NCBI GenBank assembly: GCA_945869965.1
Contig: CAMBRC010000012.1
Span: 1-64,000 of the forward strand
Reading direction: 5' to 3'
DNA from: Asaia bogorensis
GTDB lineage: Bacteria > Pseudomonadota > Alphaproteobacteria > Acetobacterales > Acetobacteraceae
Length of the DNA: 64,000 nt
Shown: positions 19,568-23,306 of the stretch, one piece after another
Numbering within the stretch: the stretch's first letter is position 1
How the letters are laid out: every line of letters starts with the position of its first letter
Position numbers and translations under genes: made by a program
Notes under the pieces: model-generated
What the model saw: only the letters and a program-made list of their open reading frames with translations
Database searches by the model: none
Told to the model about the DNA's origin: nothing

Positions 19568-20296
19568 ATGTTTGATCTGGGCCGGTCATCGCGCGCCCTC
19601 CTCCTCGCCCTCCTCCTCGCTCCCGCCCCCGAAGCCGCCGCCCAATCCCCCACCTGGGCAAAAACCACCACCGGCTGCCAGATCTGGGACCCCTGGGGCG
19701 CCAGCGAAACCCTCTCCTGGTCCGGCCCCTGCACCGCCGGCAAAGCCACCGGCAAGGGCACGTTGCAACGCGGACGCGGCGCCGCCGCCCTGGCCTACGA
19801 CGGCACCCTGCGCGACGGCCGCGCCCACGGCCCCGGCCGCATCACCTGGGCCGATGGCGCGCAGTACAACGGCAACTGGCAGGACAGCCAGCGCGCCGGC
19901 CGTGGCACCCAAATCTTCGCCAGCGGCAACCGCTACGAAGGCGATTGGCGCGTCGACGTCCCGCACGGCCGCGGCACCCTGACCACCACCACCGGCCTGC
20001 GCTACGAAGGCGACTGGAAAGATGGCCAACGCACCGGCCAAGGCGACTTCACCATGCGCGACGGCACCCGCTACACCGGCGGGTGGCTGAACGGCAAACA
20101 GGAAGGGCAGGGCACCCAGGTCTTCGCCAACGGCAGCCGCTACGAGGGCCAGTGGCGCGGCGGCCTGCCAAACGGCCCCGGCACCGGCTATGGCGCGGTC
20201 ACCGGCCGGATCTTCCGCGGCACTTTCCGCAACGGCTGCCTGCGCACCGACCAATACACCGCCGCCTTCGGCGTCCCCGACGCCGCTTGCCAATAG
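19568..20296 (+). CDS. Secreted MORN-repeat protein
   Basis: A 242-aa protein with an N-terminal signal peptide (RALLLALLLAPAPEAAAQ). About six MORN repeats follow from residue 70 to 210, each in the form YEGDW-x-DG-x-x-HGRGT. MORN repeats form an extended beta-sheet and usually mediate membrane or protein contacts; the precise role here is unknown. A Cys pair (GCQIW and GPCTAG) precedes the repeats. It starts 2 bases after the low-GC HNH gene but has high-GC codon use, so its original promoter may have been displaced. Confidence 0.85.
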   Translation: MFDLGRSSRALLLALLLAPAPEAAAQSPTWAKTTTGCQIWDPWGASETLSWSGPCTAGKATGKGTLQRGRGAAALAYDGTLRDGRAHGPGRITWADGAQYNGNWQDSQRAGRGTQIFASGNRYEGDWRVDVPHGRGTLTTTTGLRYEGDWKDGQRTGQGDFTMRDGTRYTGGWLNGKQEGQGTQVFANGSRYEGQWRGGLPNGPGTGYGAVTGRIFRGTFRNGCLRTDQYTAAFGVPDAACQ

Positions 20297-20371: not shown

Positions 20372-20977
20372 ATGAAAGCAGAACGCACCCCCTTCGCGGC
20401 CCATCCGCTTGCCGGCCTCCTCGCCGACATGCGCCTGGAATCCGCCCGGCGCGCCGCCCAGCGCGGCGTGCTGGTGGCCCTGCACGCCCTGATTCTGTCC
20501 GCCCTGACGCGCCTGCTCGGCCGCCTCGATGCCCTGCTCACCCTCTGGCAATCCGGCCAGCTCCCCACCCCGACCCCCGTCCGCACCCGCATCGTCATCC
20601 CGGCCGCCGCGAAGGACCCGCGCTCCCCTCACGTCACCACCCGGTCGCTCCACCGCGCACGCCCGCTCGCGTCACCGCCGCCCGGCGCCGCGCAGCCGCA
20701 ACCCCAGCGCCCGCAGCCGCCCTCGCACCCAACCGCCCCCGCCGCGACCCCGCCGCCAATCCCCCTCCCGCACCCCCGTTTCCACAAGCCACCATGGCCC
20801 TCGCGCGCAAAACACCCCGAACCCCCCGCGCTCAGCTGCATCTTAAATGTTTCGATATCGAAATTAAAAACATCCTTGCACCCCCAGCCCAACCCCGCTA
20901 GCGTCCCGTCCATGCGCAACCCCGCCACATCGCCCGTCTCGCGATTTTGGTACCGCTGGTACATCCCGGTGGTCTAG
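20372..20977 (+). CDS. Pro-rich small protein, paralogue of 55357, probably frame-disrupted
   Basis: The open frame is 201 aa, but only the first 75 residues look authentic: a hydrophobic helix (LVALHALILSALTRLLGRLDALLTLW) then SGQLPTPTPVRTR, matching the layout of the protein at 55357 (NRLGRMVLRLDRL, AGTLPKPCPARP). After that the frame crosses a 32-base interspersed repeat (20593-20624) and becomes a Pro/His/Arg string. A neighbouring frame then looks more protein-like (RRDPAANPPP). The last 22 codons coincide with the aromatic leader peptide, in frame by chance. I read this as a member of a lineage-specific family whose 3' part was shifted by repeat insertion. Function unknown. Confidence 0.45.
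   Translation: MKAERTPFAAHPLAGLLADMRLESARRAAQRGVLVALHALILSALTRLLGRLDALLTLWQSGQLPTPTPVRTRIVIPAAAKDPRSPHVTTRSLHRARPLASPPPGAAQPQPQRPQPPSHPTAPAATPPPIPLPHPRFHKPPWPSRAKHPEPPALSCILNVSISKLKTSLHPQPNPASVPSMRNPATSPVSRFWYRWYIPVV
20593..20624. repeat. 32-base interspersed repeat inside a coding frame
   Basis: CGTCATCCCGGC, then six variable bases, then GAAGGACCCGCGCT. It matches the copy at 55258-55289 at 29 of 32 positions. Here it lies inside the small Pro-rich protein gene, where the paralogue has no such sequence. Confidence 0.75.
20876..20904 (+). promoter_or_regulatory. Promoter of the DAHP synthase leader
   Basis: TTGCAC (20876-20881), a 17-base spacer and TAGCGT (20899-20904). Transcription would begin 7-8 bases later, at or just before the ATG of the leader peptide (20912), making it leaderless. 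The region just upstream is A/T-rich, unlike coding sequence. Confidence 0.55.
20912..20977 (+). CDS. Aromatic amino acid leader peptide (attenuator)
   Basis: A 21-aa peptide, MRNPATSPVSRFWYRWYIPVV. Five of six consecutive codons specify aromatic residues (Phe-Trp-Tyr-Arg-Trp-Tyr), too dense for chance. It ends 25 bases before a 9-bp hairpin and about 190 bases before a type II DAHP synthase, the first enzyme of aromatic biosynthesis. Ribosome stalling at these codons when charged Trp, Tyr or Phe tRNA is scarce would be expected to prevent hairpin formation and let transcription continue. Known family logic: Trp/Phe leader attenuators; the assignment here is inference from sequence. Confidence 0.75.
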   Translation: MRNPATSPVSRFWYRWYIPVV

Positions 20978-21002
20978 GTCTGCGCGCATAACGCACTCAC
21001 CG

Positions 21003-21036
21003 AAGCCGCCACCCCCTGGCGGCTTTCGCGTTTCTT
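21003..21036 (+). terminator. Attenuator hairpin before DAHP synthase
   Basis: AAGCCGCCA (21003-21011) pairs perfectly with TGGCGGCTT (21017-21025) across CCCCC, followed by TCGCGTTTCTTG, a modest U-rich run. GGTGG at 20968-20972, within the last leader codons, can pair with CCACC at 21009-21013 and so compete with the terminator stem, giving a possible antiterminator. Confidence 0.65.
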
Positions 21037-21100
21037 GATCCCCTCGACCAGCACGAAATCCCCGCCAGGGCTGAAGCGGCTCCCACCAAGGAGCAAGCTC

Positions 21101-21181
21101 ATGTCCGACGACTTCGACGTTCTCACCGGCCCCGCCACCCCGCCGCAGCCGAAGCGACAGGTGCAAAATGTCCATTCGTAA
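21101..21181 (+). CDS. 26-aa ORF overlapping the DAHP synthase start
   Basis: [20 protein letters not shown]... then VQNVHS, initiated by ATG after a strong AAGGAGC ribosome site. It ends 14 bases inside the DAHP synthase gene, whose own ribosome site is weak. It could be a translational-coupling peptide. No family recognised. Confidence 0.45.
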
Positions 21182-22559
21182 TCAGGCGGGGCGTAACCTC
21201 ACCGCCCCGACCCCCGCCGCCGACTGGTTCCCCGCCTCCTGGCGCGCCCGCAAAGCGCACCAGATGCCAACCTACCCGGACGCCCAGGCCCTCGCCGCCG
21301 CCGAAGCAAAACTCCGCACCTCCCCCCCGCTGGTCTTCGCCGGCGAGGCCCGCTCGCTGACCACCGCCCTCGGCCGCGTCGCCCAAGGCAAAGCCTTCCT
21401 CCTCCAAGGCGGCGACTGCGCCGAATCCTTCAGCGAATTCAACGCCAACCTGATCCGCGACACCTTCCGCACCATCCTGCAAATGGCTGTCGTCCTCACC
21501 TACGGTGCCGCCACCCCCGTGGTAAAACTCGGCCGCATGGCCGGCCAGTTCGCCAAGCCACGATCCTCGGACACCGAAACCATCAACGGCCTCGAACTCC
21601 CCAGCTATCGCGGCGACATCATCAACGGCCCCGACTTCACCGTCGCCGACCGCACCCCCGACCCCGCCCGCATGCGCGAGGCCTACTACCAGTCCGCCGT
21701 CACCCTTAACCTCCTGCGTGCCTTCGCCCAAGGCGGTTTCGCCGACCTCCGCCGCGTCCACCAATGGAACCGTGATTTCGTCGCGAACTCCCCCCTCGGC
21801 CCGCGCTACGAGGACATCGCCCGGCGCATCGACGAAAGCCTCGCCTTCATGGCCGCCTGCGGCCTGTCCGACCAGCCGCAACTCGCCGAAACCGATTTCT
21901 GGACCAGCCACGAAGCCCTCCTCCTCCCCTACGAAGAGGCGCTGACCCGTACCGACAGCCTCACCGGCACCGCCTATGCCTGCTCCGCCCACATGCTCTG
22001 GATCGGCGAACGCACCCGCCAGCCAGACGGCGCCCATGTCGAATTCCTCCGCGGCGTCGGCAACCCGATCGGCATGAAGGTCGGCCCAACGATGACGCCC
22101 GACGAACTGCTCAGCCTCTGCCGAACCCTCAACCCCAGCAACACGCCGGGACGCCTGACCCTGATCACCCGCATGGGCGCCGAGAAACTCGGGGCCACAC
22201 TTCCCGGCCTCCTCCGCGCCGCCAAAGCCGACGGTCAAAACATCGTCTGGTGCTGCGACCCCATGCACGGCAACACCGTGAAGGCCAGCAGCGGCTACAA
22301 GACCCGTGCCTTCGATGCCATCCTGGCGGAGATCAGCGCCTTCTTCGCCGCCCACCGCGCCGAAGCCACCCACCCCGGCGGCATCCACATCGAGATGACC
22401 GGCAAGGACGTCACCGAATGCACCGGCGGCGCCCAGGAAATCGGCGACGCCGACCTCGCCGCCCGCTACGACACCCTCTGCGACCCCCGCCTCAACGGCG
22501 CCCAGGCCCTCGAACTCGCCTTCCTGGTCGCCGAAGAACTCAAGTCCGCCCGCACTTGA
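21168..22559 (+). CDS. aroG: Type II 3-deoxy-D-arabino-heptulosonate 7-phosphate synthase
   Basis: DAHP synthase of the plant-like class II, 463 aa, condensing phosphoenolpyruvate and erythrose 4-phosphate at the head of the shikimate pathway. Signatures are [11 protein letters not shown] near residue 80, [44 protein letters not shown], and the metal-site His and Glu in [10 protein letters not shown] and [12 protein letters not shown]. The N-terminus ([17 protein letters not shown]) is also typical. It is preceded by an aromatic leader peptide and hairpin, so attenuation rather than only allosteric feedback may control it. The symbol is for the type II isozyme; the numbering of isozymes in this species is unknown. 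Confidence 0.95.
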
Positions 22560-22634: not shown

Positions 22635-23306
22635 ATGATCCGCCCACCCTTTCCCCGTGCCATCGCCGCCGTGATCTTCGACATGGACGGCACCCTGCTG
22701 GATACCGAGAGCGTCTATGTCCGCACCTTCATCGAAGCCGCCGGCGAGATGGGCCACCCGATCAGCCATGACTTCCTGCACACCCTGATCGGTCTGCCTG
22801 GCGGTGAGTTCCAGAAGAACCTGCGCGCCAAACTCGGCGAGGACTTCCCCTACGCCGAGCACCGCACCCGCTACCTGGTCCGTCGCAATGAGATCCTCGC
22901 CGACGGCGTGCCGATCAAGCCCGGCGCGCTCGAACTGCTCGACCACCTCGAAGCCACCAACACCCCCATGGCCATCGCCACCGCCGCCACCCGCGAAAAC
23001 GCCGAGGAACACCTGCGCCGCTCCGGTCTGCGCGCCCGCTTCGGCGTCGTCCTGACCCGCGATGACGTCAAGAACTCCAAGCCGATGCCCGACCTCTTCC
23101 TCGCCGCCGCCGCCGGCATCGGCATCGCCCCCGACGCCTGCATCGCCATCGAAGACTCACACAACGGCGTCCGCGCCGCCCACGCCGCCGGCATGATGAC
23201 GGTCATGGTCCCCGACATCCTCGCCGCCACCGACGAAATCCGCGCGATGTGCGTCACCGTCCTGGACACGCTGCACGACCTGCGCGGCCTGCTCAAACCC
23301 GGCTGA
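22635..23306 (+). CDS. HAD-superfamily hydrolase, beta-phosphoglucomutase-like
   Basis: Subfamily IA HAD phosphatase or phosphomutase, 223 aa. Motif I is FDMDGTLLDTE (nucleophile Asp16, acid/base Asp18), motif II is ATAATRE, the motif III Lys is in VKNSKPMPDLF and motif IV is AIEDSHNGVRAAHAAGM. The helical cap lies between residues 20 and 95. Substrates of this class are sugar phosphates, phosphoglycolate or nucleotides and cannot be narrowed by sequence alone. It overlaps the convergent MFS gene by 14 bases. Confidence 0.9.
   Translation: MIRPPFPRAIAAVIFDMDGTLLDTESVYVRTFIEAAGEMGHPISHDFLHTLIGLPGGEFQKNLRAKLGEDFPYAEHRTRYLVRRNEILADGVPIKPGALELLDHLEATNTPMAIATAATRENAEEHLRRSGLRARFGVVLTRDDVKNSKPMPDLFLAAAAGIGIAPDACIAIEDSHNGVRAAHAAGMMTVMVPDILAATDEIRAMCVTVLDTLHDLRGLLKPG

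Follow-up and report, generated by a model that had tools for sequence, protein, structure and literature searches.

A probable transcription attenuator with Phe, Trp and Tyr codons precedes a microprotein ORF and a class II DAHP synthase gene in Asaia bogorensis

In Escherichia coli, the trpL and pheL leaders encode peptides rich in the regulated amino acid, and their RNAs contain four segments that form the mutually exclusive pairings 1:2, 2:3 and 3:4. Regulation of the E. coli trp and phe operons by attenuation is also noted in the available part of one report (PMC11802643). The accessible text of the same report and of a second one describes AroR, a leader with Phe-Tyr-Phe ahead of aroF in Corynebacterium glutamicum that responds to limitation of Phe, not of Tyr (PMC4046766, PMC11802643). 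For the trpL/rnTrpL/peTrpL system of Sinorhizobium meliloti, the accessible text reports an RNA 5' end at the leader ATG and an attenuator before trpE(G) (PMC7298713).

The element described here lies in a window of 64,000 nucleotides, the whole stretch of A. bogorensis DNA that was analysed. It resembles the E. coli trp and phe attenuators in its amino-acid-rich leader and in its mutually exclusive 1:2, 2:3 and 3:4 pairings. It differs from them in that three aromatic amino acids are combined in one leader, that its start is probably leaderless, that a microprotein ORF follows the terminator, and that it precedes class II aroG (aroG II), trpG or other genes. With AroR it shares the position of an aromatic-codon leader ahead of a DAHP synthase gene; however, C. 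glutamicum is an Actinobacterium, and the available text mentions neither Trp codons nor a microprotein (PMC4046766, PMC11802643). Given this precedent, attenuation of a DAHP synthase gene is not unprecedented, and the statement of an earlier sequence-only reading of the locus, that such a target is unusual, has to be softened. Like S. meliloti trpL, the element is alphaproteobacterial, and from its promoter position its transcript is predicted to start at or next to the leader ATG, whereas S. meliloti-type leaders carry consecutive Trp residues, and neither Phe/Tyr codons nor a DFDV ORF are described in the accessible text (PMC7298713). Features that appear to be new are a leader for three amino acids, its occurrence in several families of Alphaproteobacteria and, most of all, the microprotein that accompanies it. 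Rfam yielded no match in the window; the best permissive matches were unrelated (E 0.83 or worse), and a known Rfam leader was rejected because no family reached its gathering score. The matches listed in a literature search (titles and beginnings of abstracts) included no paper on this leader, and none was found for the string RFWYRW; subscription journals, which were thinly covered, could hold one. A survey of proteobacterial attenuators by Vitreschak and others from 2004 could contain a related case. The parts of the locus are the following:

20876..20881, + strand: predicted -35 hexamer TTGCAC; position relative to the leader ATG kept in relatives
20899..20904, + strand: predicted -10 hexamer TAGCGT after a 17-nt spacer; position kept in relatives
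20912..20977, + strand: leader peptide ORF, MRNPATSPVSRFWYRWYIPVV*, 21 codons, probably leaderless, from its translation and from relatives
20945..20962, + strand: putative sensing codons Phe-Trp-Tyr-Arg-Trp-Tyr (TTT TGG TAC CGC TGG TAC), from computed stalls
20952..20959, + strand: segment 1 (ACCGCTGG), within the sensing codons; its CCGCTGG pairs with segment 2
20966..20973, + strand: segment 2 (CCGGTGGT), in the final leader codons, from folding and pairing counts
21002..21011, + strand: segment 3 (GAAGCCGCCA), 5' arm of the putative terminator and antiterminator partner, from 2:3 pairing counts
21017..21026, + strand: segment 4 (TGGCGGCTTT), 3' arm of the putative terminator, from hairpin scan and pairing; followed by a T-rich tail to about 21037
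21088..21093, + strand: Shine-Dalgarno motif AAGGAG of the microprotein ORF; an SD-like motif precedes all such ORFs
21101..21181, + strand: DFDV microprotein ORF, 26 codons, overlapping the start of the DAHP synthase gene by 14 nt
21168..22559, + strand: class II DAHP synthase gene (aroG II), TIGR01358, 707 bits

The leader and the hairpin ahead of the DAHP synthase gene are real features of the sequence. Translation bore out the leader ORF with its six successive codons for Phe-Trp-Tyr-Arg-Trp-Tyr, and the reported 9-bp stem (21003-21011 with 21017-21025) is perfect and was lengthened to 10 pairs by a hairpin scan (21002-21026). The tail that follows had been called U-rich; it is T-rich, but in the window (CGCGTTTCTT) it is broken by CG, so that the GC-rich stem is followed by an interrupted rather than a clean U-tract. 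The DAHP synthase gene, expected about 140 bases further on, starts 142 nt past the hairpin at 21168, and its assignment to type II is confirmed by the equivalog model TIGR01358 (707.1 bits, cut-off 614.7). The competing fold proposed between GGTGG in the leader and CCACC in the hairpin does exist, but the register that is kept in relatives pairs GGYGGY (20968-20973) with GCCGCC (21005-21010). The leader RNA of the window was more stable than shuffled sequences (z of -3.08, two calculations). A single element was found in the source genome, two further model matches at E about 3 being noise, and this genome encodes a second class II DAHP synthase on contig C51 that belongs to a clade mostly lacking the element. 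Upstream of the leader, a frame with a Leu-rich stretch (LHALILSALTRLLGRLDALLTLWQ) spans 20372-20900; it matched nothing in a Pfam search and has apparent counterparts upstream of the leader at two other loci (L004, L012). Neighbouring genes encode a MORN-repeat protein and a HAD-like hydrolase (19568-20296 and 22635-23306).

Conservation of the W/Y/F codons and of the hairpin in close relatives, which had been suggested as a check, was borne out by 127 non-identical copies of the element, which come from Acetobacteraceae, Azospirillum, Dongia and other Alphaproteobacteria. These copies were collected in several ways. Of the DAHP synthase loci compared first, all six whose protein has the motif LLQGGDCAE carry the leader (the window, which is L003, and L004, L005, L006, L007 and L012). 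A scan with a degenerate 18-base pattern hit 77 places in 73 of 397 genomes of the family, whereas the reversed pattern, by a hand count, matched in about 42 genomes, so that the pattern count is weak by itself. Of the 77 places, 69 were accepted as the same element on the grounds of what they have in common: leader, terminator and, in nearly all of those that are not truncated, the small ORF. The other eight were set aside as chance matches (L034, L035, L036, L037, L044, L052, L104, L110), and L109 was a stray. With a threshold of E 1e-4, a covariance model built from 65 elements detected matches in 81 of the 395 genomes scanned from the order, two of which (G048, G025) were judged not to contain the element; only the divergent matches from these 81 genomes were added to the set, and loci L245-L271 were left out. 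Across the class, the model matched in 38 of 385 genomes at E 0.01, including ten clear matches in other families (L112 to L121). Named genomes were scanned with a pattern in which CGATTTTGGTACCG was fixed; this returned 102 stretches, 80 of which were kept as loci, from Roseomonas, Neoroseomonas, Belnapia, Azospirillum, Dongia and others; lineages were looked up for three of the 80. Three weak matches unlike the element (L290, L291, L294) were left out of the 127. A plasmid-borne element was tried as a further candidate and rejected, as the window element and one Azospirillum copy had no match in a plasmid collection.

Because 107 of the 127 elements match the search pattern and hence contain F, W and Y codons by construction, unbiased counts were taken from the 20 elements outside it and, for the third bases of CGA and TTT, also from the 65 aligned elements. 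F, W and Y codons all occur in 18 of these 20 elements, and in 124 of the 126 elements with a start codon, a number that includes the selected ones. The core of most leaders reads R-F-W-Y-R-W-Y-x-P-A-A, and in other families the order of the aromatic residues is changed (RFYDRWY, RYFTRWY, RYFGRWF, RFYGRWF). The two exceptions are L285, which has no Trp codon, and L274 (G199), in which a TAA stop directly follows R-F-W; promoter boxes, pairings and DFDV ORF are retained in the latter. Three diverged leaders without a DFDV match were left out of the set: L284, whose core lacks Phe and Tyr (RLWRRWRHKSAA), L287 (LFWCCWYLPEA), and L288 (RFWRRWL), which lacks Tyr. If they are counted, the microprotein accompanies 114 of 130 elements, and 19 of 23 non-pattern leaders have F, W and Y. 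L284 is a diverged second copy in one genome (G143), and the regular expression used for the microprotein detects no DFDV ORF there. Since there are two Arg codons in the core, arginine could also contribute to sensing.

The spacing of promoter and leader is constrained as well. In 110 of 126 elements, TTGC or TTGA starts 35 to 37 bases ahead of the leader ATG; in 105, TA lies 12 to 13 bases ahead of it. For the 44 elements with several leader ATGs, the ATG had been picked by promoter score, which favours this result; therefore, the test was redone with the 82 elements that have a single ATG. In these, TTG[CAT] is present at the position of the -35 box in 77, and both boxes are present in 64, compared with none of the 82 at each of seven shifted anchors. 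An SD-like motif precedes the leader in only four of the 82. Judged from the promoter sequence, transcription of the window element should start at the leader AUG (20912) or no more than one or two bases from it, and the leader is therefore probably leaderless. A general promoter scan of the window called no promoter, because the two boxes remain below its sigma-70 threshold.

Three alternative pairings are retained together with the leader. In 41 divergent elements (less than 86% alike by simple ratio), pairing is possible in 98.6% of the cells for 1:2, in 98.4% for the antiterminator 2:3, and in 98.8% for the terminator 3:4. In this alignment (A3), the ends of L292 and L298 were trimmed by hand, and the structure leaves out two pairs that can form less often, the outer A pair of segment 1 (15 of 65 elements) and the terminator's apex pair (43 of 65). 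The first alignment, of 65 elements, was counted with such pairs and gave 88.8% for 1:2, 95.9% for the terminator and 98.2% for 2:3. The three mutually exclusive pairings that characterise a trp-type attenuator are thus present, with little covariation. Compensatory changes in the hairpin had been suggested as a check; the leader is kept, but the terminator contributes only five A-U to G-C double changes, which are limited to one pair in A3, and covariation in the 2:3 helix is no higher than in shuffled alignments. Covariation is limited because the letters are nearly invariant.

The effect of a stalled ribosome on these pairings was computed. When the complete window RNA was folded at equilibrium with a ribosome mask, 6 to 8 of 8 terminator pairs were retained at every ribosome position, so that a switch must be kinetic. 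Therefore, a co-transcriptional fold was adopted, in which only the RNA made before segment 4 exists and everything up to the front edge of the ribosome is blocked. Whichever of four footprints was assumed, this calculation predicted the antiterminator in all 120 elements when the A-site was on F, on W, on Y or on the Arg codon that follows, compared with 16 of 120 without a ribosome and a single one with the ribosome at the stop codon. Computed stalls one to three codons ahead of the R-F-W-Y core also gave the antiterminator in 66 to 103 of the 120 elements. For a stall at the second W the result depended on the footprint, with the antiterminator in all 120 elements for the two shorter footprints and in 10 for the two longer ones. 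Thus, the model singles out the first F-W-Y triplet as the most reliable sensor.

Taken together, the conserved leader, the promoter spacing, the alternative pairings and the co-occurrence of the microprotein ORF with the leader make attenuation very likely, on the basis of comparison and computation, and the mixed Phe/Trp/Tyr attenuator postulated from the sequence is well supported by the kept leader, the three pairings and the placement of the promoter. We conclude with high confidence that the element controls transcription by ribosome-mediated attenuation in response to the charging of aromatic tRNAs, ahead of a microprotein ORF and a class II DAHP synthase gene. In the mechanism that we infer, the 21-codon leader would be leaderless, with its AUG at the transcript start or directly beside it, and would be translated. 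With ample Phe, Trp and Tyr, the ribosome would reach the end of the leader and cover segment 2, and the 3:4 hairpin would terminate transcription. If any of the three aminoacyl-tRNAs were short, the ribosome would halt on the F-W-Y codons and cover segment 1, 2:3 would form, and the polymerase would continue into the DFDV ORF and from there, in the lineage of the window, into the class II DAHP synthase gene that overlaps it. Without translation, 1:2 would form and the terminator would prevail. The element would thereby be a candidate control of the entry into aromatic synthesis in Acetobacteraceae, Azospirillum and relatives, pooling the supplies of all three products, and it offers a compact example from nature in which conservation is plain to see in the sensing codons, the promoter and the RNA pairings alike.

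The target of the element varies. For 115 elements with at least 900 nt of downstream sequence, class II aroG follows in 29 and trpG in 23, that is, aromatic genes follow in 52, and neither of the two is found within 900 nt in 63. The DAHP synthase gene had been taken as the target, which is true for the window but for only 29 of the 115 elements; a regulator of DAHP synthase only was rejected because 63 elements lack both genes within 900 nt, and DAHP synthase is one of several outputs. Both trpG products tested scored above the cut-off of TIGR00566, and at one locus (L090) reading of the frames indicated trpD-like and trpC-like frames after trpG. Other downstream genes identified with Pfam include those for a luciferase-like oxidoreductase, an M24 peptidase and a solute-binding protein. 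A DAHP synthase tree of 38 element-linked and 25 unlinked rows, in which the unlinked rows are those most like the window protein rather than a census and several rows represent one gene twice, needed two label changes. It contains one large group that is always linked, and four linked proteins (L095, L103, L194, L202) inside an otherwise unlinked group. One element-linked class II DAHP synthase frame (G051:C116:62158-63504) has one internal TGA, which would represent a pseudogene or a sequencing error.

The usual neighbour of the element, which the sequence-only reading had not mentioned, is a small ORF encoding a microprotein with the motif [FY]DFDV, which was found downstream of 114 of 127 elements. 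It was searched for with the regular expression D-[FY]-D-[VILA] near the ORF start, so that both D residues are fixed by construction. At the positions left free by the search, the fourth residue of the expression is Val in all 114 (GTC in 68, GTG in 33, GTT in 13) and the second is Phe in 113; a Phe or Tyr stands directly ahead of the expression in 86, and behind it come Gly in 92 and Pro in 99. This conservation indicates that the microprotein is under selection. All 114 ORFs are preceded by an SD-like motif. Trp is absent from all 109 ORFs shorter than 90 codons; the remaining five (L067, L068, L069, L071, L292) continue in frame into a longer protein, which in the one tested (L071) is a solute-binding protein (SBP_bac_11), and an internal Met may be the true start in these run-on frames. 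A profile built from the element-linked ORFs gave 22 matches with E below 0.01 in 100 genomes of the family, all just downstream of an element, and the strongest match elsewhere (G078, E 0.03) lies inside a frame of 447 aa. Five of the 13 elements without the microprotein are near a contig edge (L058, L077, L098, L165, L220); six precede aroG (L095, L117, L118, L120, L200, L296), and the others are L046 and L070. Searches of Pfam and NCBIfam with the leader and four microproteins identified no model, the best sub-threshold match being DUF1639 (E 0.11).

In 17 of the 23 trpG loci, the microprotein stop codon overlaps the trpG start by 4 nt, which suggests translational coupling. A heuristic strand call places what seems to be a convergent gene immediately downstream at several loci of Azospirillum, Dongia and Neoroseomonas, where the microprotein may therefore be the sole product. 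A tentative extension, to which we give somewhat less than an even chance, is that the switch exists mainly to make an aromatic-starvation microprotein, the Trp-free [FY]DFDV protein being a trans-acting effector and aroG II and trpG passengers. If so, the microprotein would relay the presence of uncharged Phe, Tyr or Trp tRNA to a partner (an enzyme, a regulator or a ribosome factor), and aroG II and trpG would be passengers that were coupled to it in some lineages. Anti-TRAP of Bacillus subtilis, too, is a small protein, and its synthesis responds to uncharged tRNA-Trp (PMC11255114). The parallel is an analogy only, as anti-TRAP is a zinc protein under T-box control. Since the conserved microprotein family is linked to a probable starvation switch, its function can be put to a direct test, and the question of most promise is the role of the microprotein when aromatic tRNAs are short.

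An alternative is that the terminated leader transcript acts in trans as an sRNA like rnTrpL, and that this may be its main role where no aromatic gene follows. It would fit the 63 of 115 elements without aroG and trpG within 900 nt, and the available text of PMC7298713 describes rnTrpL, too, as beginning with the ATG of trpL and as having trpDC as its target in trans. In addition, the codons CGA TTT (window 20942-20947) are invariant in 65 of 65 aligned elements, although the search pattern by which all of them had been found was open to any CGN and either TTY codon. Among the 20 non-pattern elements, CGA encodes Arg in 20 of 20 and TTT encodes the Phe present there in 16 of 16, a fixation that could result from a constraint on the nucleotides, that is, an RNA-level role. 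However, slow codons would explain it equally well: the window DAHP synthase gene uses TTT for none of its 18 Phe codons and CGA for two of its 35 CGN Arg codons, whereas the leader uses both, and it is plausible that the slow CGA TTT sharpens stalling at the sensor. A pure sRNA would also have no need of an attached microprotein ORF with an SD motif and conservation at the amino acid level, and on this analysis a main role as an sRNA is unlikely.

Still less likely, with a small residual probability, is that the nascent leader peptide arrests the ribosome upon binding a small molecule, as TnaC does, instead of responding to uncharged tRNA. The high conservation of the peptide core, including the final P-A-A, would be expected in this case, but the order and identity of the aromatic residues vary in divergent copies, which a specific arrest peptide would hardly tolerate, and base pairing explains the P-A-A since segment 2 encodes it. 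That the locus is an ordinary intrinsic terminator beside a chance ORF that is not translated, or beside the final part of a longer protein, is hardly credible and was rejected: the window frame is open from 20372, and in 85 of 126 elements the 15 codons ahead of the leader ATG contain no in-frame stop, but such a stop is present in the other 41, the leader is kept across families, and the predicted promoter abuts the ATG.

Apart from the aromatic attenuator described above, the covariance model also matched, at E 3e-4 to 3e-6, a different short leader with W-Y-F-T (e.g. MLKTLSHNAWYFTPLT) and a hairpin at four loci of families f93 and f66 (L122-L124, L127). These WYFTPL-type matches were left uncounted and possibly represent another family of aromatic leaders; the one in L123 is followed by a gene for a GNAT acetyltransferase.
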